Shown piece by piece: positions 21,848-33,256 of a stretch of 64,000 nucleotides of DNA (position 1 is its first letter; each line of letters opens with the position of its first letter). The notes below the pieces were generated by a model, which was given only the letters and a program-made list of their open reading frames with translations, did no database searches and was not told where the DNA came from. Made by a program: the position numbers and the translations under genes. The DNA is from Aeromicrobium sp. GTDB lineage: Bacteria > Actinomycetota > Coriobacteriia > Anaerosomatales > Anaerosomataceae. The DNA lies in assembly GCA_015351705.1 (NCBI GenBank), contig JADIIM010000048.1:1-64000 (forward strand). Direction: 5' to 3'.

Positions 21848-22513
21848 TCAGCTCTTCCAGAGGTACCCGACGTTGCGCACGGTCTCCAGGCGCCAGGAGA
21901 CCTCCGGGCCGAGCTTGGAACGGATGCGCCGCACGTGCACGTCCACGGTCCGCGCGCCGCCGAAGTAGTCGGTGCCCCACACGCGGGTGAGCAGCACCTC
22001 GCGACTGTAGACGCGGTTGGGGTGCGTGACGAGGAACGCGAAGAGCGAGTACTCCAGGAACGTGAACTCCACCGGCTCGCCACCCACCTGCGCCTGGTAG
22101 GTCGCCAGGTTGAGCGTCAGCCCGTCGAGGCGGATCAGCTCCTCGGCCGCCACCTCCTGGCCCGGCCACAGAAGGCCGCGCACGCGTGCCACGATCTCGG
22201 CAGCGGAAGCACCGCGCACCACGAAGTCGGCGGGAAACCGCACGGGCATACGAAGGCTGCCGAGGGACTCGGGCTCGACCACCACGAGGAGCCTCACGTC
22301 GGAGCCGCCCGCGACCGCGCGCTCGGCCTCGGCGATGACCGTCTCCGGCGCCCGCGTGCCGTCGACGACCATCAGGTCGCCGGGGTCGGCGAGCAGCCTG
22401 TCGGCGAGCTCCGCGCGGGCGCACCGGTCGCGGGCCACATCGAGCTGCTCGAGGGCGCTCTCGATCCACGCACGGGAGTGCACGTCGTCCGCCACGATGA
22501 TGAGCCGCTTCAT
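21848..22513 (-). CDS. GlnR-like OmpR-family transcriptional regulator with atypical receiver
   Basis: 221 residues. Receiver-like domain 1-115 has the acidic pair Asp9/Asp10 and Asp51, but the conserved switch Lys is Arg (position 100, FVVRG) and the switch Thr is missing, so phosphorylation is doubtful. Winged helix 125-221 (FTFLEYSLFAFLVTHPNRVY, VWGTDYFGGARTVDVHVRRI, TVRNVGYLW) closely resembles actinobacterial GlnR, an orphan nitrogen regulator that activates glnA and ammonium genes. No kinase gene is adjacent, while glnA lies immediately upstream in the same direction. ATG at 22513 was chosen because the receiver starts there. The GlnR identity is inferred from these motifs and position. 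Confidence 0.75.
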   Translation of the reverse strand: MKRLIIVADDVHSRAWIESALEQLDVARDRCARAELADRLLADPGDLMVVDGTRAPETVIAEAERAVAGGSDVRLLVVVEPESLGSLRMPVRFPADFVVRGASAAEIVARVRGLLWPGQEVAAEELIRLDGLTLNLATYQAQVGGEPVEFTFLEYSLFAFLVTHPNRVYSREVLLTRVWGTDYFGGARTVDVHVRRIRSKLGPEVSWRLETVRNVGYLWKS

Positions 22514-22627
22514 GTGCACGATTCTAGCCTCCCGTGCCTCGAGCTGAACACAGGCGCCGGGCGACATGAGCCGCCCGGCGCCGTTGCCGTGCTGCCGCCG
22601 GACACCCGGCGGTGAGAGCGCGTCACA

Positions 22628-23971
22628 CTAGAGGATCGAGAGGTACTTGTCCTGCTCCCACGGCGAGACGTAGCTCACGTACTCGCTCCACTCCTTCTTC
22701 TTGTTCTCGACGAAGAAGCGGTGGATGTGGTCGCCGAGGACCTCTTTCATGAGATCGGACTGCTCGAAGGCGACGATGGCCTCGCCAAGATCCTTCGGCA
22801 GGGTCTTGATACCCGCATCGGCGAGTTCGTCCTCGGTCATGTGGAAGATGTTGTTGGTGGCCTCGGGCATCAGCTCGAGACCCTCCTCGATACCCTTGAG
22901 GCCGGCGCCCAGCATGACCGCGAAGGCGAGGTACGGGTTGGCCGAGGGGTCCGGCGAGCGAAGCTCGACGCGGGTCGCCACTTCCTTGCCCGGCTTGTAC
23001 ATCGGCACGCGGACCATGGCCGAGCGGTTCCGGCGCGCCCACGTCACGTACACCGGAGCCTCGTAGCCCGGGACAAGCCGCTTGTAGGAGTTCACGAACT
23101 GGTTCGTGACGGCACAGAACTCGGGGGCGTACTTCAGCAGACCGGCGATGTAGCTCTTGCCGACGGCCGAGAGGTTGTAGCCATCGGGGTCGTTGGCGTC
23201 GAACATCGCGTTGCCGTCCTTGGTGAACAGCGACTGATGCACATGCATGCCGGAACCGTTCTCGCCCTGGATCGGCTTGGGCATGAAGGTGGCGTACACG
23301 CCGTTCTTGTGCGCGACCTCCTTGACGGTCAGGCGGTAGGTCATCACGTTGTCGGCCATCGTGAGCGCGTCGGCGTAGCGCAGGTCGATCTCGTGCTGCG
23401 ACGGCGCAACCTCGTGGTGGGAGTACTCCACCGGGATGCCGAGCTTCTCGAGGGTGAGGACCGTCTCGCGACGCAGGTCGCTCGCCACGTCGAGCGGCGT
23501 GAGGTCGAAGTAGCCGCCCTTGTCGAGCACCTCGGTGCCCTCGCTGTCGGCGAAGTAGAAGAACTCGAGCTCGGGACCGACGTACATCGTGTAGCCCATG
23601 TCGGCGGCCTTGGCGAGCACCCGCTTGAGCGCGTAGCGCGGGTCGCCCTCGAACGGCGTGCCGTCGGGGTTCATGACGTCGCAGAACATGCGGCCCGTTC
23701 CGGCGGTGTCACCGTTGCAGCGCCACGGCAGCGCCTGGAACGTCGTCGGATCCGGGAACGCGACCATGTCGGACTCCTGGATGCGGGTGAACCCGTCGAT
23801 CGAGGAGCCGTCGAAGCCCATGCCCTCCTCGAACGCTCCCTCGAGCTCGGTGTCGGTCACCGCGAAGCTCTTGAGAAAGCCGAGGACGTCGGTGAACCAG
23901 AAGCGCACGAAGCGGATGCCGCGCTCCTCGATCGTCCTCATCACGTAGTCTTTGTCCATCGGTGTGGTCAT
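22628..23971 (-). CDS. glnA: Glutamine synthetase type I (alpha, Gram-positive kind)
   Basis: ATP-dependent amination of glutamate; main ammonia assimilation enzyme, dodecameric in the cytosol. 447 residues, the length of the GSI-alpha subgroup (Bacillus, Thermotoga) rather than the ~470 of the adenylylated GSI-beta. Signature GFDGSSIDGF, ATP-site KPIQGENGSGMHVHQS, RRNRSAMVRVP and the C-terminal SPWEQDKYL. The Tyr-containing adenylylation loop of GSI-beta is absent, so control is probably feedback and transcriptional. ATG at 23971 follows GAGGAGG. The upstream gap holds paired GAAAC elements and an inverted repeat, a plausible site for the GlnR-like regulator encoded downstream. Confidence 0.97.
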   Translation of the reverse strand: MTTPMDKDYVMRTIEERGIRFVRFWFTDVLGFLKSFAVTDTELEGAFEEGMGFDGSSIDGFTRIQESDMVAFPDPTTFQALPWRCNGDTAGTGRMFCDVMNPDGTPFEGDPRYALKRVLAKAADMGYTMYVGPELEFFYFADSEGTEVLDKGGYFDLTPLDVASDLRRETVLTLEKLGIPVEYSHHEVAPSQHEIDLRYADALTMADNVMTYRLTVKEVAHKNGVYATFMPKPIQGENGSGMHVHQSLFTKDGNAMFDANDPDGYNLSAVGKSYIAGLLKYAPEFCAVTNQFVNSYKRLVPGYEAPVYVTWARRNRSAMVRVPMYKPGKEVATRVELRSPDPSANPYLAFAVMLGAGLKGIEEGLELMPEATNNIFHMTEDELADAGIKTLPKDLGEAIVAFEQSDLMKEVLGDHIHRFFVENKKKEWSEYVSYVSPWEQDKYLSIL

Positions 23972-24012: not shown

Positions 24013-24039
24013 ACGGCCGGGATGTTTCGGCCGTGTTTC
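24013..24039. promoter_or_regulatory. Candidate regulator-binding site upstream of glnA
   Basis: Two GTTTC pentamers (24024-24028 and 24035-24039; GAAAC toward glnA) are exactly 11 bases apart, the phasing of OmpR-type winged-helix dimers; GAAAC is also the conserved half of the actinobacterial GlnR box. A perfect inverted repeat ACGGCCG / CGGCCGT (24013-24019, 24028-24034) overlaps them. The site is about 42-68 bases before the glnA start. The GTnAC halves of a full GlnR box are not in register. Confidence 0.45.
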
Positions 24040-24679: not shown

Positions 24680-25513
24680 CTACATCGAGGCATAGAGCTT
24701 GGCGTAGGGACGGTGGCTGACCGGCGCTATCCGGACGAACGGTCCGTCCATGATCGCCTCGGCGTCCTCACCGAACGCCTCAGCGTACTCCTCCACGAGC
24801 GGGCGCAGGACGCCGAGGTCCTCCTCGCACGCCTCGGTGATACCCACCTCCGCGCCGCACTGCCACGGCTCGACGGTGCCGCGCACGTACATCACGCCGC
24901 CGTGCATGCCCGCACCGGTGAACCCGCCCACGAGCGGCTGCTCGGGGAAGTGCGTGTTCACGCCGAGGAGGACGAGCACGCCTCCTGCCATGTACTCGCC
25001 GAAGAAGTCGCGTGCCTTGCCACCGCACACGACCACCGGCACGTGCTTCTCGTACGCCTTCATGTGGATGCCGACGCGATAACCCACGTCGCCCTGCACG
25101 AACACGCGGCCGCCCCGCATGCCGTATCCGAGCACGTCGCCTGCGTCACCGTGCACGATCACGCGCCCGGAACTCATCGTGTTGCCCACACCGTCCTGCG
25201 CGTTGCCGAAGACCTCCACCTCGGCACCGTCCATGAACATCGCGGTGTCGTTGCCGGCGGTGCCGTGCACCTCGATACGCACGCCGGGCACGCGCAGGCC
25301 CGCCCCGATGTAGCGCTGCCCGTTGGCGCCGGTGACACGCACCGTCGTGACGCCATCGGCAACAAGCCGCCGTATCGCGTCGTTGAGCTGCTGGAAGTAG
25401 ACGCCCGTGGTGTCGACCGTGGCCGCGTCTCCTTCGCGCTCGATGACGGGAGCCACCTGGCGGTACCCTTCGATCACGCCCGCGGGGGGCACACTGACCG
25501 CTGCCTTGATCAT
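24680..25513 (-). CDS. Glutamate synthase, C-terminal (GXGXG) domain protein
   Basis: 277 residues corresponding to the right-handed beta-helix domain at the C-terminus of bacterial GltB, here a separate gene as in archaea and many anaerobes. The repeated Gly-rich turns (GANGQRYIGAGLRVPG, GNAQDGVGNTMSSG, GDAGDVLGYGMRGG, GDVGYRVGIHMK, GGFTGAGMHGG) make the helix. The domain is structural and links the ammonia tunnel parts. ATG at 25513 follows GAGAGGAG. Last gene of the hdrBC-gltB operon; 16 bases after the synthase domain gene. COG0070 family. Confidence 0.92.
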   Translation of the reverse strand: MIKAAVSVPPAGVIEGYRQVAPVIEREGDAATVDTTGVYFQQLNDAIRRLVADGVTTVRVTGANGQRYIGAGLRVPGVRIEVHGTAGNDTAMFMDGAEVEVFGNAQDGVGNTMSSGRVIVHGDAGDVLGYGMRGGRVFVQGDVGYRVGIHMKAYEKHVPVVVCGGKARDFFGEYMAGGVLVLLGVNTHFPEQPLVGGFTGAGMHGGVMYVRGTVEPWQCGAEVGITEACEEDLGVLRPLVEEYAEAFGEDAEAIMDGPFVRIAPVSHRPYAKLYASM

Positions 25514-25529
25514 CTCCGGCACTCCTCTC

Positions 25530-27041
25530 TCACATGCCCGCCGGCTTAACGCCGAGCACGCGGCACGTGTGCTCGTCCAGTCCGATCGACCGCAGACGTT
25601 CGCGGCTCCCGCGCAGGCTCTCAACGGCGTTCACGCCGAGGGCGCCCAGGATCTCCTGGAGTTCGTGGCTCCACGCGTGGACGAGGTTGGTGAGGCGCTC
25701 TGCCCCCCACTCGGGATCGATGCGGCGTGTAAGCTCGGGCTTCTGCGTGGTGATGCCCCACGAGCACTTGCCGGTGTGGCAGCTCTGACACAGGTGGCAA
25801 CCGAGCGCGAGCAGGGCCGCTGTGCCGATGGCGACCACGTCGGCGCCGAGCGCGATGGCCTTGGCCGCATCCGCTGAGGAGCGGATGGAGCCGGCAGCGA
25901 TGATCGACGCCTGGTTGCGGATGCCCTCGTCGCGCAGCCGCTGGTCCACCGCGGCGATCGCGACCTCGACCGGGATGCCGATGTGGTCGCGGATGACCGC
26001 GGGCGCGGCGCCGGTGCCGCCACGGAAGCCGTCGAGGTAGACGTAGTCCGCGCCGGCGCGCACGATACCGCTCGCGATCGCCGCCACGTTGTGCACCGCG
26101 GCGATCTTCACGCCTACCGGCTTGTAGCCGCTGGCCTCTTTGATCGCGTAGATGAGCTGCCGCAGATCCTCGATCGAGTAGATGTCGTGGTGCGGCGCCG
26201 GGCTGATGGCGTCTGAGCCCTGCGGGATCATGCGCGTGGCGGAGACCTCACGGTCGATCTTCTCGCCGGGCAGGTGCCCGCCGATCCCTGGTTTGGCGCC
26301 CTGCCCGATCTTGATCTCGAGCGCTGCGGCGCGACCGAGCACCTCGGGGTTCAGGCCGAAACGCCCCGAGGCCACCTGCAAGATGGCGTGGTCCTGGTAG
26401 GGATACAGGTCCTCGTGCAGACCGCCCTCACCGGTGTTCATGAGGATGCCGAGCCGCTCGGCCGCCATGGCAAGCGACCGGTGGACGTTGAGCGACACCG
26501 AGCCGTAGCTCATCGGTGAAAAGATGATCGGCGTGTCCAGCTTGAGGTTGTTGGTCATGCCGCCACCCTCGGCCAGACGGAAGCCACCGTTGCCGTCCGA
26601 CTCCACCTGCACGGCATCGGGCTTCCGGCCGAGGTAGGTCCGGAGCTCCATCGGCTCGCGCAGCGGGTCGATCGACGGGTTGGTCACCTGGCAGGCGTCG
26701 AGCACGAGCTTGTCGAAGATGCGCTCGTACGGCCTCGGGTTCCCCATCGAGGTGAGCAGCACGCCGCCGGTGTCCGCCTGCTTCCAGACGCCCTTGACCA
26801 GGTTGGTGGACCAGTTGTCGTTCTCACGGAACGCGAGCGCGTTCTTCTCGATGGTGATGCAGTGCGCCGGGCAGTACGTCACGCAGCGGTGGCATGCGCG
26901 GCACTTCTCGTCATGCGGGATGGGCCGCTCGGCGAAGTCGTAGACGCCCCAGCCGCACTGCTGGACGCAGCGCCCGCACTTGTGGCACTTGTCGTAGTCG
27001 ATCCTGACCCGGAACTCGGGCTGCACGAACGTCTGCTGCAT
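25530..27041 (-). CDS. gltB: Glutamate synthase, FMN/synthase domain with N-terminal ferredoxin domain
   Basis: 503 residues. N-terminal two-cluster ferredoxin (CHKCGRCVQQCG and CRACHRCVTYCPAHC, residues 19-65), then the FMN-binding synthase barrel (FSPMSYGSVSLNVHRSLAMA; KIGQGAKPGIGGHLPG; DGFRGGTGAAPAV) and the [3Fe-4S] motif CHLCQSCHTGKCSWGITTQ near 420. It converts 2-oxoglutarate plus ammonia and two electrons to glutamate. In this archaeal-type arrangement the built-in ferredoxin replaces part of the GltD electron chain. ATG 27041 follows the stop of the upstream gene by one base. COG0069 family. Confidence 0.94.
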   Translation of the reverse strand: MQQTFVQPEFRVRIDYDKCHKCGRCVQQCGWGVYDFAERPIPHDEKCRACHRCVTYCPAHCITIEKNALAFRENDNWSTNLVKGVWKQADTGGVLLTSMGNPRPYERIFDKLVLDACQVTNPSIDPLREPMELRTYLGRKPDAVQVESDGNGGFRLAEGGGMTNNLKLDTPIIFSPMSYGSVSLNVHRSLAMAAERLGILMNTGEGGLHEDLYPYQDHAILQVASGRFGLNPEVLGRAAALEIKIGQGAKPGIGGHLPGEKIDREVSATRMIPQGSDAISPAPHHDIYSIEDLRQLIYAIKEASGYKPVGVKIAAVHNVAAIASGIVRAGADYVYLDGFRGGTGAAPAVIRDHIGIPVEVAIAAVDQRLRDEGIRNQASIIAAGSIRSSADAAKAIALGADVVAIGTAALLALGCHLCQSCHTGKCSWGITTQKPELTRRIDPEWGAERLTNLVHAWSHELQEILGALGVNAVESLRGSRERLRSIGLDEHTCRVLGVKPAGM

Positions 27042-27042
27042 G

Positions 27043-28275
27043 CTAGACCGCCACCTCCAGCGACTCTTCACACGACACGTCGGTCCCGGTGACGGCGCAG
27101 GAGATCTCGGCCGCACCGAGGTGGAGCTGGCTGTGGACCGGCGACTCCATGCCCGCCACGCGGCCGATGACCGGCTCGCCCGCCTTGGGCGCCCACACGA
27201 CGTCCGGCGCGGTCATGACGGCGCGGATCGCGGCTTCTTCCGAGGCGACCATGAGCGTGCTGCCACTGCGCGCCGCCACGAGCGGGCGCAGCTTGATGCG
27301 GTCGTTGAGCGCCACCATGCCGCCGTTGAACCCGAGCACGATCGCGAACGGGCCGTTGAGCATGCCCGGCCCGTACACGGCACGCAGCGAACGCATCAAC
27401 GCGGCGTCATCGGCCGACATGCGGTCGATGTCGGACCACAGCGGCGCGGCGAGCGCCTTGCAGGCGAGCTCGACCGGCAGTTTGTGGCGACGGAGCAGCA
27501 GGTCGAACAGGTACGCGGCCACCTCGGTGTCCGTGCCGAGCGAGCACGTATAACCGAACTGCTCGAGGTAGCGTGCGTTGATGCCGTAGCTCGAGATCTC
27601 ACCGTTGTGCACGATCGACCAGTCAAGCAGCGTGAACGGATGCGCACCGCCCCACCAGCCGGGCGTGTTCGTTGGGAAGCGGTTGTGACCCACCCACGTG
27701 TGGCCCTCGTACTCCTCGAGGCGGAAGTAGTGCCCGATCTCCTCCGGGTACCCCACGCCTTTGAACGCGCCCATGTTCTTGCCCGAGGACGCCACGAACG
27801 CGCCGTCGACGCGAGCGTTGATGTTCATGACCATCTGGACCACGTAGTCCTCGGCGGACATCTCACGCTCCTCGAGCACCTCGGGGTGCGGCGCGAGGAA
27901 GTACCGCCACAGCAGCGGCGCGTCGGTGATGCCCTTCACCGGGCGGGTCGGCATCGGCTCGGCGACCTCGATGGCGAACGACGCCGCAAGCAGTGCCTCG
28001 GCCTCTTCCTTGGCGCGCATGTCGTGGAACATCATGTGGAACGCGAAGAGCTCGGCGAACTCGGGATAGATGCCGTAGCCGGCGAACCCGCCGCCCAGGC
28101 CGTTGCCGCGGTCGCGCTGCACGGCCATGGCGCGGATCGCCACGTCACCGCTCATGAGGGCGCCGCTCTCGTCACAGATGCCCATCAGCCCGCACCCGCC
28201 GTGGATCTTGAACGGCGACTCATCGCGGTATCGGGTGACGTCGAATGTGTCGTAACGCTCCAGGTCGTACGCCAT
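27043..28275 (-). CDS. Glutamate synthase, glutamine amidotransferase (class II) domain protein
   Basis: 410 residues. Releases ammonia from glutamine for the synthase domain protein encoded next. HGGCGLMGICDESG (Cys28) is the likely mature N-terminal nucleophile after propeptide removal; WVGHNRFPTNTPGWWGGAHPF, VHNGEISSYG and LGTDTEVAAYLFD are standard Ntn-amidotransferase motifs. Only 5 bases separate it from hdrBC upstream and one base from gltB downstream, so it is tightly coupled. COG0067 family, separate gene as in archaeal-type glutamate synthases. Confidence 0.92.
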   Translation of the reverse strand: MAYDLERYDTFDVTRYRDESPFKIHGGCGLMGICDESGALMSGDVAIRAMAVQRDRGNGLGGGFAGYGIYPEFAELFAFHMMFHDMRAKEEAEALLAASFAIEVAEPMPTRPVKGITDAPLLWRYFLAPHPEVLEEREMSAEDYVVQMVMNINARVDGAFVASSGKNMGAFKGVGYPEEIGHYFRLEEYEGHTWVGHNRFPTNTPGWWGGAHPFTLLDWSIVHNGEISSYGINARYLEQFGYTCSLGTDTEVAAYLFDLLLRRHKLPVELACKALAAPLWSDIDRMSADDAALMRSLRAVYGPGMLNGPFAIVLGFNGGMVALNDRIKLRPLVAARSGSTLMVASEEAAIRAVMTAPDVVWAPKAGEPVIGRVAGMESPVHSQLHLGAAEISCAVTGTDVSCEESLEVAV

Positions 28276-28280
28276 GGCTC

Positions 28281-29606
28281 CTACTCCTCACTCGTGGTCA
28301 GTAGGCGGGCGACCGCGTCGCCGCCGCCTTCGGGAAGGGGGTCAAGCCCGAGCTTCTTGCGGGCGGACTCGCGAGGCTTGCCGAGCGCGCCGGTCCTCAG
28401 GAACTCGGCATAGGCAGCCGAGACCGACTCGGGACCCGCGTCCGCCTCCATCGCGAGCTCTTTGAGCGTGCGGAACGTCTCGGCCATGCCGATACGGCTG
28501 TGGCAGAGCTCCTGGCAGGTGTAGCACTCGAGGCACTTCCACAGATCGCCGCGCGCGATGACGGCGTCGAGGTCGCCGCGGATGAGCTCGCCGATGATCT
28601 CGGTGGGCTGGAACGACGTGTCGATCTTGCACACCGGGCAGTCGTCCTTGCAGGCACCGCAGGCGAAACACGTGCCGAGGAGCGAGACGTCGAAGTGCTC
28701 GGCCAGCCGCGCCTTGTCAGCGGCGCGCACGCCCCACTTCTCGAGGAACGGCTCCACGCCCACACGGTGCATGCCGAGACCGACCTCCTCGGGTGTGTGG
28801 CCGTAGGCGAGCGCGATGAGTTCGGAGAGGTAGAGCACCGGCACGTTGACGTCCTCGTTGGCGCGCTGCAGCGCCGCCTGGTTGAGATCGAACTGCTGGA
28901 AGCACGAAGGGCACACGACCACGAGCGCATCGACCTCTTCGCGCATGAGGTCGCCGAGCTTGCGGCGCGCGAACGCGAGCGAGCTGTCGCGCTCGCCCAC
29001 GCGGTCGAGCGCGCCGCCGCAGCACTGCATCTTGGACGGGTAGTCCACGACCTTCGCGCCGAGGGACGCGACGAGCTCCTCGACCTTGGTCGGGTTGAGC
29101 GGGTCGTCCCAGCGCACCGCAGGCTGCGGGCGCAACAGATGACAGCCGTAGTGGACGGCAACGCGCATCCCCCACAGCGGGTTGGTGACCTTCGAGCCGA
29201 GCGTGCCGGCGCCCACATGATCGGCCAACCACTCGGCGAAGTGCACGACCTGCGTCCGTGCGTCGTAGCGAAGCTCCTCGGCGGCCAGACGGGCGTTGAT
29301 CGCCTCCCGCTCACGCCATGCGGCCGTCAGATGGCTCGAGGCCTCCTTGAACGTGGAGTAGCAGCCGTTGCAGGGCGTCACCACGTCCAGACCGGCCCGC
29401 TCGACGATCGCGAGGTTCCGCGCCGCCGCCGTGTAGAACGCACTCTCGTCGTTGGCCTTGACGAGCGTCCCCTCCGGACAGCACGTGTGACCGGCGAGCT
29501 CGTGCACGGTCGCGCCCAGGTCGTCGAAGACCAGCCGCGTCGCCTTCTCGATCTGTGGGAACCTCGCGGGGATGGTGCATCCCCAGAAGACCGCGAACTC
29601 CCGCAT
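28281..29606 (-). CDS. HdrB-HdrC fusion: iron-sulfur (CCG domain) protein
   Basis: 441 residues. The first 290 contain two CCG modules (Cys10, HTCCPEG, PCNGC; then YGCHL, QCCGG, CPSC) as in HdrB of heterodisulfide reductase, which bind the non-cubane [4Fe-4S] cluster pair. The C-terminal part has two ferredoxin motifs (CFACGACKDDCPVC, CLECYTCQELCH) as in HdrC. No membrane segment. Such proteins pass electrons between thiol/disulfide or ferredoxin partners. First gene of an operon with split glutamate synthase and no gltD, so it may be the electron donor module (inference). It has a promoter and an antitermination-type leader. Confidence 0.88.
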   Translation of the reverse strand: MREFAVFWGCTIPARFPQIEKATRLVFDDLGATVHELAGHTCCPEGTLVKANDESAFYTAAARNLAIVERAGLDVVTPCNGCYSTFKEASSHLTAAWREREAINARLAAEELRYDARTQVVHFAEWLADHVGAGTLGSKVTNPLWGMRVAVHYGCHLLRPQPAVRWDDPLNPTKVEELVASLGAKVVDYPSKMQCCGGALDRVGERDSSLAFARRKLGDLMREEVDALVVVCPSCFQQFDLNQAALQRANEDVNVPVLYLSELIALAYGHTPEEVGLGMHRVGVEPFLEKWGVRAADKARLAEHFDVSLLGTCFACGACKDDCPVCKIDTSFQPTEIIGELIRGDLDAVIARGDLWKCLECYTCQELCHSRIGMAETFRTLKELAMEADAGPESVSAAYAEFLRTGALGKPRESARKKLGLDPLPEGGGDAVARLLTTSEE

Positions 29607-29625: not shown

Positions 29626-29671
29626 AAAAACGGAAAACGCCCACCCGGACCCGGTATGGTCCGTGTGAGCG
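29626..29671 (-). terminator. Intrinsic terminator in the hdrBC-gltB leader
   Basis: On the minus strand CGCTCACACGGACC (29671-29658) pairs with GGTCCGGGTGGGCG (29651-29638): 13 of 14 positions, one A-G mismatch, loop ATACCG. TTTTCCGTTTTT follows at once (29637-29626). It lies 20 bases before the hdrBC ATG and its 5' arm contains the 3' arm of the second hexaloop hairpin, so the two cannot form together. Confidence 0.85.
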
Positions 29672-29713
29672 TCGTTGCTCGTCTCTTCAGTTGCCGGCGC
29701 GTCGTTGAGCCGG
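29667..29713 (-). promoter_or_regulatory. Twin hexaloop hairpins: candidate ANTAR-protein RNA target
   Basis: Hairpin 1 (29713-29694): CCGGCTC / GCGCCGG with one T-C mismatch, loop AACGAC. Hairpin 2 (29680-29667): GAGC / GCTC, loop AACGAC. Both have hexaloops with A1 and G4 closed by C-G, the known signature of ANTAR antiterminator binding sites, with a 13-base linker. Hairpin 2 excludes the terminator. A PdtaR-type ANTAR gene lies 1.5 kb upstream. Confidence 0.8.
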
Positions 29714-29720
29714 TGTCGGT

Positions 29721-29749
29721 AGTCTAGCAGGGCTCGTGCCGGATGTGAA
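29721..29749 (-). promoter_or_regulatory. Promoter of the hdrBC-gltB operon
   Basis: -35 TTCACA (29749-29744), spacer of 17, -10 TAGACT (29726-29721) on the minus strand. The expected start at about 29714 is right at the base of hexaloop hairpin 1, giving a leader of about 110 bases. Confidence 0.65.
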
Positions 29750-29814
29750 GCGCGCCGGAAACCCGCACGTAACGCGACCGCGAGCGCCGGCGGGCGGCCG
29801 CGCCCCGTATCCCG

Positions 29815-31179
29815 TTACACGCCGAGCACCACGGTGGCGATCGAGAAGTAGATGAACAGGCCCATCACGTCGGCAAGCGTCGTCACGAGCGGACTGCTCG
29901 CCACCGTGGGGTCCTGCCTCAGCTTCGTGAGGACGAACGGCAGCAGCATGCCGAACAGGTTCGTTGCGAGCACGATGACGGCCATCGATGCACCGACCAC
30001 GACCCCGATGCGCACGTCGCCGCGCCACAGGCCGAGCCCGAACGCCCCCGCCGCAAGCGTCGCGCCCAGGAGCAGCCCGACGCCGATCTCCTTCACGAAC
30101 GTGCCGAACCACGTCTTCATCGTGACATCTCCGGTCACGAGCGCACGGACCATCATCATCGCGGACTGCGAACCGGTGTTGCCCCCCGTGGCGATCAGGA
30201 GCGGGATGAAGAACGTGAGCGCGATCACCGCGGCGAGCGTCTCCTCGAACGCGGCGATGATGCTCGATGACGCGATGTTGACCACCAGAAGCACGGCGAG
30301 CCACCCCACGCGCTTCCCGTACAGGTCGAACACACTCAGGCTGCGATAGCTCGCCTTGAGCGGCATGACGGACGCGGTGCGGTGGATGTCCTCGGTCGCT
30401 TCTTGCTCGGCCACGTCGAAGATGTCGTCGGCCGTGACGATGCCGATGAGCACACCCGCCGAGTCGACCACCGGCAGCGCCACCACGTCGTGCCGGCCCA
30501 TCTCACGCACCGACTCTTCCCGGTCGTCGAAGGCGGTGAGCCGCGCATGGACCGGCCGCATCACCCCGGAGACGGTGACGGCCGGGTCGGCCAGGATCAG
30601 ACGCCTGAGCTCGCACACACCGAGCAGTTGCCAGGCATCGTCCACCACATACAGTACGTCGATGGTCTCCGAGTCGCGCCCGCGCGCCCGGACGTGATCG
30701 AGCGCCATCGCAACCGTCCAGTCGGGGCGGATGGCGACGTAGTCCGGTGTGGCCAGGCGCCCCACGCTCTCCTCGGGATAGCCGAGCAGCTGCCGCACCT
30801 CGCGGAAGTCCTCGTCCCCGAGCAGGTTCAGCAACCGCTGCGTCATCTCGCCGGGAAGCTCCTCGAAGAACTCCGCCCGGTCGTCAGGAGCGAGTGAGGC
30901 GAGGAGCGAGCGTGTCTGCTGGTCGCTCAGGCCCTCGAGCACGACATCGCGGTCCGGCCGGTCGTAGTAGGCGAACACGATCGCCGCGGTCTCGCGCGGG
31001 AGGAGCCGGAAGAGCAGCACGCGCTCCGGCGCCTCGAACTCCAGCAGCGCATCGGCCACATCAGGCGCCGATGCCGCGGCCATCGCCCGCCGCGCCTCGG
31101 CCCACGCGTGGCGATCGACGGCATCACGCAATCGAACGACCAACTCGGCCACGGTCATGTCGTCGCGCACGGCGATCAT
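29815..31179 (-). CDS. mgtE: Magnesium transporter MgtE
   Basis: Mg2+-selective channel of the cytoplasmic membrane. 454 residues: N-terminal superhelical domain (about 20-130, EFFEELPGEMTQRLLNLL), two CBS domains (about 135-260, with VADDIFD- like ADDIFDVAEQEA) that sense Mg2+, and five membrane helices from about 290 (the pore signature ATGGNTGSQSA near 330). Normal family length. ATG 31179 overlaps the stop of the ANTAR regulator gene by four bases, so it is co-translated with pdtaR and pdtaS. Possible ANTAR control of Mg2+ transport is not shown by the sequence. Confidence 0.95.
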   Translation of the reverse strand: MIAVRDDMTVAELVVRLRDAVDRHAWAEARRAMAAASAPDVADALLEFEAPERVLLFRLLPRETAAIVFAYYDRPDRDVVLEGLSDQQTRSLLASLAPDDRAEFFEELPGEMTQRLLNLLGDEDFREVRQLLGYPEESVGRLATPDYVAIRPDWTVAMALDHVRARGRDSETIDVLYVVDDAWQLLGVCELRRLILADPAVTVSGVMRPVHARLTAFDDREESVREMGRHDVVALPVVDSAGVLIGIVTADDIFDVAEQEATEDIHRTASVMPLKASYRSLSVFDLYGKRVGWLAVLLVVNIASSSIIAAFEETLAAVIALTFFIPLLIATGGNTGSQSAMMMVRALVTGDVTMKTWFGTFVKEIGVGLLLGATLAAGAFGLGLWRGDVRIGVVVGASMAVIVLATNLFGMLLPFVLTKLRQDPTVASSPLVTTLADVMGLFIYFSIATVVLGV

Positions 31180-31745
31180 GCCTCGGCCTCCGCTGCGAGC
31201 ACGACCGCCTCGGCAACCTCTCGAAGCGTCATCCTGCGGTCCATGGCGAGCTTCTGCAGGCGTCGGAACGCCTCCGGTTCGGTGAGGCCCTTGGACATCA
31301 GCACGCCCTTGGCCCGGTCGAGCGCCTTGCGGGTCTCGAGCCGGTCGGAGAGGTCGGAGATCTCGGCCTCGAGAGCCCGCGCCTCGGCGAAGCGCGAGAC
31401 CGCCACGGTCATGGCCGGAGCGATGTCACGGCGGGTGAACGGCTTGACGATATAGGCCATGGCTCCTGCCGCCGACGCCGCATCGACGTGGCTCTGCTGC
31501 GAGAACGCCGTGACCATGACGACCGGTGCGATCCGCTCCTCGCCGATCACCCGTGCCGCCTCAAGGCCGTCGACGCCGGGCATCTTCACATCCATGAACA
31601 CGACGTCCGGAACGAGCTCACGAGCGAGCGCGATCGCCTCGGCACCGTCACGCGCCTCACCGATGACCTCGTGTCCCTCCTCGGCGAGCATCTCACGCAG
31701 GTCCATGCGGATGAGAGCCTCGTCCTCGGCGATCAAGACACGCAC
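31176..31745 (-). CDS. pdtaR: ANTAR-domain response regulator (PdtaR-like)
   Basis: 189 residues. Receiver 1-115 with acidic pair in AEDEA, phosphorylation site Asp52 (VVFMDVKMPG) and Lys101 (VKPF); ANTAR RNA-binding domain about 128-185 (RKALDRAKGVLMSKGLTEPEAF). ANTAR proteins bind paired hexaloop hairpins and stop terminator formation; in mycobacteria PdtaR is activated by PdtaS. GTG at 31745 is chosen: GGGAG lies seven bases upstream and the receiver starts at once. Kinase gene 4 bases upstream, mgtE overlapping downstream. A matching RNA target lies in the hdrBC-gltB leader. Confidence 0.92.
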   Translation of the reverse strand: MRVLIAEDEALIRMDLREMLAEEGHEVIGEARDGAEAIALARELVPDVVFMDVKMPGVDGLEAARVIGEERIAPVVMVTAFSQQSHVDAASAAGAMAYIVKPFTRRDIAPAMTVAVSRFAEARALEAEISDLSDRLETRKALDRAKGVLMSKGLTEPEAFRRLQKLAMDRRMTLREVAEAVVLAAEAEA

Positions 31746-31749
31746 GCAC

Positions 31750-33168
31750 TCACTCCCTCTCGCCGGATGCGGGAACACGGACGGTCACGGCGGTCCCGGG
31801 CGAACCGCGGAACTCCAGTGTACCGCCCAGGTCGTCCTCGACCACGGTGCGCACGATCGCCAGGCCGAGGTGCGCCGAGCCGTCCACGGTGAAGCCGGGC
31901 GGCAGGCCGACGCCGTCATCGCGCACTTCGAGCAGCACGTCCGATCCCGCGCGGCGCACGCCCACGCGCACGGCTCCGTCGGTGCGTCCGGCGAGACCGT
32001 GCTCGATGGCGTTGTGCACGAGCTCGGCCGCCACGAGGGCCAGCGACGTTGCCACCTGGCCCGGCACCGGCCCGGTCTCTCCGTCGACCCTGACGGTGAT
32101 CGCGCTGTCGGGGCCGGCGAGTCCCTGTCGCACCATGTCGACGACGGTCCGGACCGCCGCGGTCAGGTCCACCGACTCGTCGGCGGCCTCGGCGAGCATC
32201 CCGTGCACGACCGCCATCGACGACACGCGCTCGACGGCCTCCGCAAGCGCGCGGGCCGCCTCGTCGCTTGCCGAGCGCCGGGCCTGGATGCGCAGGAGCG
32301 ACGCGATCGTCTGGAGGTTGTTCTTCACGCGGTGATGGACCTCACGGATCGTCGCCTCCTTGACCCGGAGTTCCTGCTCGCGACGCCGCACGTCGGTGAC
32401 GTCCTCGACGAGCACGAGCGCGCCGCCGGTCAGCCCGATGGCTCGGTACGCAAGCGCGCGGCCGCCCACCTCGGCGGTTATGCTGCGACCCGCATCCGTG
32501 CCGAGCACCGGCGTGACCGCCATGGCGCCGCCGGGAAGCGCCGACGCCGGCCCGCCCACCGGCGTACCGTCCATCCCCGCAAGACGCATGATGTTGACGG
32601 CGTTGGGGCTTGCGTAGACCACGCTCCCGTCCGGGGCCACTTCTAGCACGCCGTCGCCGGCGGTGCGGGTGGTCGAATAGGGGGTCTCGGTGTCCAGCTC
32701 GGTGATCGCGCTCGTCCGCAGGCGCTCGAGCACACGCTCGGCCAGACGCATGAACGCGACCTCCATCTTGCCGGGCGCCTCGGCCACGCTTTGGCCGAGA
32801 TGACGCACGACCACCGCATAGGGTGCCTCAGGAGGCCCGACGGGATAGGCGGTGGACGTGAACGCGATGCCGCGCTTGGTCCTGCGGCGCGCTCCGCAGA
32901 CCAGCGTGCCCCCGGTGAGCGAGTCGTACGCCTCGGGCTCCTCCTCGTACGGCACACGCTCGCCAGCACGGCTGATCGGGATAGCCGCGGCGGCAGTGGT
33001 CGGACGGGCGTCGGCGACCACCCTGAGCGTGCCGTCCCGTTCGGCAACGAGCAGGGCGACGTCGCCGTATCCGAGGTCAGCGGCAAGCTGCAGGTTGGAG
33101 GCCACATTTCGGACGTGGCGACTCGCCGCCCCGTCCAGCGTGAGCATCATATCGGTCTCGTGTCCCAT
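31750..33168 (-). CDS. pdtaS: PdtaS-like soluble sensor histidine kinase (HisKA_2)
   Basis: 472 residues with no membrane helix. N-terminal GAF-like sensor (1-150), PAS-like domain (about 165-260, DGSVVYASPNAVNIMRLAGM), then HisKA_2 dimerisation helix with EVHHRVKNNLQTIASLL (phosphorylated His near 285) and an HATPase (ELVHNAIEHGL, EVRDDGVGLPPG). This is the architecture of mycobacterial PdtaS, which phosphorylates PdtaR. ATG 33168 lies eight bases after a perfect TATAAT, so the mRNA is probably leaderless. Four bases separate it from pdtaR. Confidence 0.92.
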   Translation of the reverse strand: MGHETDMMLTLDGAASRHVRNVASNLQLAADLGYGDVALLVAERDGTLRVVADARPTTAAAAIPISRAGERVPYEEEPEAYDSLTGGTLVCGARRRTKRGIAFTSTAYPVGPPEAPYAVVVRHLGQSVAEAPGKMEVAFMRLAERVLERLRTSAITELDTETPYSTTRTAGDGVLEVAPDGSVVYASPNAVNIMRLAGMDGTPVGGPASALPGGAMAVTPVLGTDAGRSITAEVGGRALAYRAIGLTGGALVLVEDVTDVRRREQELRVKEATIREVHHRVKNNLQTIASLLRIQARRSASDEAARALAEAVERVSSMAVVHGMLAEAADESVDLTAAVRTVVDMVRQGLAGPDSAITVRVDGETGPVPGQVATSLALVAAELVHNAIEHGLAGRTDGAVRVGVRRAGSDVLLEVRDDGVGLPPGFTVDGSAHLGLAIVRTVVEDDLGGTLEFRGSPGTAVTVRVPASGERE

Positions 33169-33175
33169 GGGCGCG

Positions 33176-33181
33176 ATTATA
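33176..33181 (-). promoter_or_regulatory. Consensus -10 for a leaderless pdtaS transcript
   Basis: TATAAT on the minus strand ends eight bases before the pdtaS ATG, so transcription should begin at or next to the start codon. The -35 region is GC-rich without a good hexamer. Confidence 0.6.
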
Positions 33182-33228
33182 CGCGTGCCGGACCCTGCGG
33201 TGCCGTCGATGAGCGGCACGGCTCGGGC

Positions 33229-33256
33229 GGATGAACGGCACATCAGCCGTTCATCC
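33229..33256. repeat. Perfect 11-bp palindrome between pdtaS and the HD-GYP gene
   Basis: GGATGAACGGC, loop ACATCA, GCCGTTCATCC. It lies in the divergent gap, about 50 bases upstream of the pdtaS -10. No T-run follows, so an operator for one or both genes is more likely than a terminator. The loop lacks the G4 of ANTAR hexaloops in either direction. Confidence 0.5.

Follow-up and report, generated by a model that had tools for sequence, protein, structure and literature searches.

An ANTAR-type antitermination switch probably precedes the hdrCB-glutamate synthase operon in Coriobacteriia

Gene content of the locus

The window (the whole 64,000-nucleotide stretch of DNA analyzed here, from an uncultured Coriobacteriia bacterium) carries on its minus strand, in the order of transcription, pdtaS, pdtaR, mgtE, a short leader, an hdrC-hdrB fusion, three split glutamate synthase domain genes, glnA, and the gene for a GlnR-like regulator. 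Orthologous loci were found in Anaerosomatales and other Coriobacteriia. The genes considered here are as follows.

31750..33243, minus strand: PdtaS-type cytosolic histidine kinase (domain matches: GAF_PdtaS, HisKA_2, HATPase)
31176..31778, minus strand: PdtaR-type response regulator with an ANTAR domain (domain matches: PF00072 and PF03861)
28281..29606, minus strand: hdrC-hdrB fusion (CCG and Fer4 domain matches), 441 aa, first gene of the operon
27043..28275, minus strand: glutamate synthase amidotransferase domain (domain matches: GATase_6/GATase_2)
25530..27116, minus strand: glutamate synthase FMN domain with ferredoxin-type Fe-S clusters (domain match: PF01645)
24680..25624, minus strand: glutamate synthase GXGXG domain (domain match)
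22628..23971, minus strand: glnA, type I glutamine synthetase (domain and homology)
21848..22567, minus strand: GlnR-like OmpR-family regulator, directly 3' of glnA (best PDB matches; syntenic in relatives)

An earlier sequence-only reading had placed an hdrBC-glutamate synthase operon behind the leader. The operon is present, with hdrC and hdrB as one fused gene instead of two separate ones. The fusion has an SD sequence, AGAGG (29620-29616), about 10 nt 5' of its ATG, and its start codon is at 29606. For the FMN domain gene, the true start is probably later than annotated, since the open frame runs 5' over the preceding gene. The true start of the GXGXG domain gene probably also lies inside its annotated frame.

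Architecture of the leader

All leader elements lie on the minus strand, from 29749 to 29626.

29721..29749, minus strand: promoter, with -35 TTCACA (29749-29744), a 17-nt spacer, and extended -10 TGC-TAGACT (TAGACT at 29726-29721) (sequence and conservation)
29694..29713, minus strand: HP1, first ANTAR hairpin, CCGGCUC-AACGAC-GCGCCGG, loop at 29706-29701 (sequence, folding, covariation)
29667..29680, minus strand: HP2, second ANTAR hairpin (antiterminator), GAGC-AACGAC-GCUC (stem invariant in 45/45 leaders; conserved loop A1 and G4)
29626..29672, minus strand: intrinsic terminator, 14-bp stem and U-tract (sequence; lower-stem covariation)

The promoter TTCACA-17-TAGACT and the two hairpins with identical AACGAC hexaloops, both claimed in the sequence-only reading, were thus borne out on this strand. 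Each loop carries A1 and G4, as ANTAR target RNAs require, and both hairpins are closed by C-G; HP1 additionally contains a U-C mismatch beside its closing pair, which that reading had not mentioned. The nearest relatives (L035 and L036) have an intact U-A pair at this position, and the mismatch may weaken the switch in this genome. Paired hairpins, each with a six-nucleotide loop and a stem of 3 bp or more, recur in 51 distinct leaders. The linker between HP1 and HP2 is 13 nt in the window and mostly 12 to 16 nt in relatives. This is longer than the 5 to 12 nt of the eut leaders of Enterococcus faecalis (PMC3369931, PMC8934654), a species in which a 14-nt linker impaired eutP, and it weighs against the ANTAR assignment.

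The terminator shares the 3' arm of HP2 plus HP2 loop positions 5 and 6. In its stem (29672-29637), ACGCUCAC-A-CGGACC pairs with GGUCCG-G-GUGGGCGU, and the stem is followed by UUUUCCGUUUUU up to 29626. The double use of the HP2 3' arm as the 5' arm of a 14-bp terminator had been recognized in the sequence-only reading and holds, with one A-G mismatch counted in the stem.

Conservation and covariation of the hairpins

Orthologous hdrCB loci were gathered by protein, so that leader sequence played no part in their selection. In Coriobacteriia, these operons are preceded by leaders of one plan, 51 of them distinct, and the leader is conserved throughout the order. Conservation of the twin hexaloops in relatives, named beforehand as one of two tests on which the claim hung, was therefore observed. 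For the loop statistics, HP1 was picked by stem quality only and HP2 by its stem, with loop sequence left unused. G stood at loop position 4 in 52/53 first loops and in all 53 second loops (105/106 together). Position 1 was A in 42/53 first and 51/53 second loops (93/106 together) and G in the remainder. The single exception at position 4, L067, is a leader from which HP1 is gone while HP2 and the terminator are kept. In L067 / L156 (G079), 5' of hdrCB, HP1 is lost, HP2 and the terminator are retained, and PdtaSR is present.

In a 45-leader alignment, 6 of the 7 HP1 pairs had both partners changed. Taken jointly, HP1 and HP2 contained 41 cells changed on both sides versus 9.3 in shuffled data, and their pairing was 96%, versus 25 to 46% when slid. 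The HP2 stem is invariant (GAGC/GCUC, 45/45) and thus cannot itself add to the covariation evidence. The terminator and U-tract are retained across the leaders, and the lower stem covaries, with pair 56-86 being A-U in 23 leaders and G-C in 21. Position 6 of the second loop changes from C to A in step with a change from G to U in its terminator partner. RNAalifold, unaided, proposed HP1 plus the terminator. At another lower-stem pair, 54-88 (alignment A1), a U-G wobble is kept in 44/45 leaders.

Eleven outgroup hdr-glt loci (Thermoleophilia, other actinobacteria, and Deltaproteobacteria) were also inspected. They showed no HP2-like hairpin within 600 nt, and the surrounding DNA examined contained no recognizable PdtaR.

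Mutually exclusive structures predicted by folding

The window leader folded better than 200/200 shuffles (z = -3.8). When the lower 3' arm of the terminator was removed from the window RNA, both hairpins formed, whereas the complete leader folded into a structure without HP2. Across the 51 leaders, HP2 was present in the early-transcript MFE structure of 46 and in the full-leader MFE structure of none, and the median energies were -4.0 kcal/mol for HP2 and -25.3 kcal/mol for the terminator. HP2 and the terminator are therefore mutually exclusive in the folding models of all 51 leaders, from which we infer default termination and the need for a protein to hold HP2.

A covariance model of the twin hairpins scored 56 bits at the window leader, and the next best site in the whole genome scored 18.4 bits, which was taken as noise and not as a second leader. 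Because the leader beats all shuffles, stands far above the next best model match, and is conserved at orthologous loci, it is unlikely to be a product of chance.

The ANTAR protein and its pairing with the leader

A PF03861 search found the PdtaR at 31176-31778 to be the sole ANTAR protein in the 2.07-Mb assembly. Its gene lies 1.5 kb upstream of the leader, beside that of PdtaS. By sequence, the two-component proteins of the window correspond to Mycobacterium PdtaS-PdtaR (PMC8164766, PMC8131098). The window PdtaR has Rv1626 (1s8n) as its best match, with an E value of 1e-62 over 182 residues, and matches EutV (6wsh) with an E value of 3.7e-40. In EutV, 11 residues contact RNA (PMC8934654), and six of these are identical in the aligned window PdtaR (R142, K143, K149, E160, M172, and R175). 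Two changes are conservative (K147 to R and the stacking Y164 to F), and the other three are R168 to Q, N173 to D, and R177 to T. In Rv1626, the positions aligned with Y164, R168, N173, and R177 are likewise F, Q, D, and T. The window PdtaS matches its Mycobacterium tuberculosis counterpart, in which cysteines C53 and C57 sense Cu and NO (PMC8131098). The window PdtaS and all 29 relatives compared have residues other than Cys at the aligned positions.

Co-occurrence was scored in 296 Coriobacteriia genomes; an ANTAR protein was counted when it scored over threshold, and a leader when it scored 28 bits or more. Both were found in 58 genomes, the leader only in 1, the protein only in 15, and neither in 222, counts which are inflated and not independent because the genomes share ancestry. 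The single leader-only genome is 64% complete. Among the 15 protein-only genomes, G032 has a proper leader that scores low, G079 is the genome in which HP1 is lost, and in G106 and G137 the contigs end before or inside the leader; the assemblies of the others contain no full hdrCB ortholog. In every one of the 47 genomes examined that carry both on a single contig, pdtaR precedes the leader in the same orientation, and in 20 of these the leader lies within 300 nt of pdtaR. Weak matches of 20 to 28 bits in other genomes were treated as noise, since three of them (L139, L143, and L144) have no hdr-glt or pdtaSR match nearby and similar scores occur in ANTAR-less genomes. In Coriobacteriia families without this leader, an ANTAR gene adjoins a glutamine synthetase gene at L145, L148, and L149 (G138, G288, and G049).

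The conserved twin hexaloops and covarying stems, the structures made exclusive by folding, and the linked ANTAR two-component system, whose ANTAR gene pairs one to one with the leader, support the sequence-only reading on its central point. We consider ANTAR-type antitermination, under a dedicated regulator, about 90% probable for this leader. In the default state, the 14-bp hairpin would form and RNA polymerase would halt at the U-tract near 29626. Upon phosphorylation by PdtaS, a PdtaR dimer would bind both hexaloops of the nascent RNA and hold HP2, so that the terminator arm would be unavailable and read-through into hdrCB-gltB1-gltB2-gltB3 would follow. PdtaR binding, read-through, and their direction are predictions of this scheme.

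It could also be proposed that PdtaR acts at the leader in the mycobacterial fashion and controls translation, not termination. The window regulator scores higher against Rv1626 (214.5 bits) than against EutV (141.1 bits), and about 37% of surveyed actinobacterial ANTAR RNAs overlap the RBS or start codon, with few having terminators (PMC8164766). However, in the window both the SD sequence and the start codon come 3' of the U-tract, clear of the twin hairpins, and the terminator with its U-tract is kept across leaders, with a covarying stem. Thus, control of translation is improbable here, and antitermination is the preferred reading.

Promoter and a GlnR-like operator

The relatives' promoters carry TGn 5' of the -10 element in 49/52 cases, and the hexamer TA(T/G)A(C/A)T is conserved. 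A suspected lack of conservation of the -35 element was dropped, as a -35-like match at 4 to 5 of 6 positions was present in 27/52 promoters, versus about 3 promoters in shuffles. This promoter bears on whether the hairpin is simply the 3' terminator of an upstream mgtE or pdtaR transcript, next to which the hexaloop hairpins would be incidental. The hairpin does follow pdtaR or mgtE in the same orientation; however, the conserved extended -10 promoter intervenes only a few nucleotides 5' of HP1, HP1 covaries, G4 is kept in both loops, and outgroup operons have none of these elements, which makes such a terminator very improbable.

Upstream of the leader, a repeat operator was found, with a second copy at glnA.

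29747..29773, minus strand: degenerate operator GTTAC-N6-GTTTC-N6-GCTTC, three repeats in 11-bp phase (sequence; relatives)
24024..24039: second operator copy, exact, 5' of glnA, GAAACACGGCCGAAAC on the glnA strand (sequence search)

In the window leader, the last repeat overlaps the -35 element. Exact GTTTC-N6-GTTTC occurs 5' of the -10 element in 31/52 leader promoters and in none of the shuffles, and the repeat spacing in these promoters is 11 bp, with almost no other value. Across 461 kb of 28 loci, 38 exact sites were found, 20 before hdrCB and 18 before glnA, and none elsewhere in those loci; in 18 relatives, the glnA site lies 50 to 120 bp before the gene. A 16-bp operator of 5+6+5 repeats at nitrogen genes, as in the GlnR regulon, is therefore present, degenerate at the leader and exact at glnA. 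The genome has two further GTTTC-N6-GTTTC sites, which were set aside because they seem to fall inside coding sequences.

The best PDB matches of the OmpR-family regulator encoded next to glnA are 8hig, 8hih, and 8hml, which we take to be GlnR structures. As reported previously, actinomycete GlnR boxes are built from 5-bp repeats set 6 bp apart (gTnAc-n6-GaAAc) and occur at glnA, with gltBD also a reported target (PMC10704036). The window operator is similar in its 5-bp repeats, its 6-bp spacer, and its occurrence at glnA; it differs in being GAAAC-N6-GAAAC, in its opposite orientations at the two promoters, and in that the regulator is only GlnR-like (PMC10704036).

Given this resemblance and the GlnR-like regulator gene after glnA, two-step control is likely. 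The GlnR-like nitrogen regulator may well set initiation at both glnA and hdrCB-glt, with PdtaS-PdtaR adding control of elongation at hdrCB-glt alone. Less certainly, action of this regulator at the promoters of hdrCB-glt and glnA would mean that the operon needs two signals. If this two-input gate holds, glutamate synthase, but not glutamine synthetase, would also need the PdtaS signal. The sequence-only reading had linked the ANTAR protein with nitrogen control, which holds only in part. The target genes are indeed those of nitrogen assimilation, but PdtaS is not known to sense nitrogen; more probably, the nitrogen link stems from the GlnR-like operator, which that reading had not seen, rather than from PdtaS.

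Relation to known RNAs and regulators

At the Rfam gathering threshold, a tRNA was the sole match and none fell at the leader. The nearest family, narK RNA (RF03032), scored 20.8 bits, below its gathering threshold of 43.2, with its consensus loops AACGGC and AAAGAC aligned to the two hexaloops. Its Rfam model has one hairpin only, whereas the window leader has two; the alignment through the same two loops suggests that RF03032 is probably also an ANTAR leader, modeled with one hairpin. A terminator by itself names no regulator, but a T-box, riboswitch, or leader peptide sharing it is extremely improbable, as no Rfam family reaches threshold, the nearest one aligns via the hexaloops, and no ATG occurs from promoter to terminator.

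The leader resembles the EutV-EutW-controlled eutP leader of E. faecalis in its A1/G4 hexaloop pair, in HP2-terminator exclusivity, and in having an ANTAR response regulator with a kinase (PMC3369931, PMC8934654). Unlike the eut system, its target is hdrCB-glutamate synthase, the genome has a single leader, and the regulator is PdtaR-like. In Desulfotomaculum reducens, ANTAR leaders have been predicted at several glutamate synthase genes (PMC3369931, Figure 9A), with the same RNA motif and the same enzyme class as here. However, that organism is a Firmicute with several leaders, whereas here the leader is single, the operon includes an hdrCB fusion, and PdtaSR is linked in cis (PMC3369931). 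The window leader also has a terminator, in contrast to most actinobacterial ANTAR targets surveyed; the main text of that survey does not mention Coriobacteriia (PMC8164766).

The leader is real and conserved; by its sequence properties, linker length apart, it belongs with ANTAR target RNAs and is very probably an antitermination switch. What is new here is the GTTTC-N6-GTTTC operator ahead of it, which among the loci scanned occurs elsewhere only before glnA and suggests two-step control. In the literature searched, no paper was found that ties GlnR and ANTAR to a common operon, that reports ANTAR from Coriobacteriia, or that explains how Coriobacteriia coordinate glutamine synthetase with glutamate synthase. 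On the present reading, a PdtaR-type ANTAR protein gains one well-defined target, controlled by a classical terminator switch, in an actinobacterial lineage in which terminators are rare among predicted targets. With one regulator and one target, often adjacent, the locus should be a simple system for reading out the PdtaS signal. In addition, the shared operator suggests how Coriobacteriia may coordinate glutamine synthetase and glutamate synthase.
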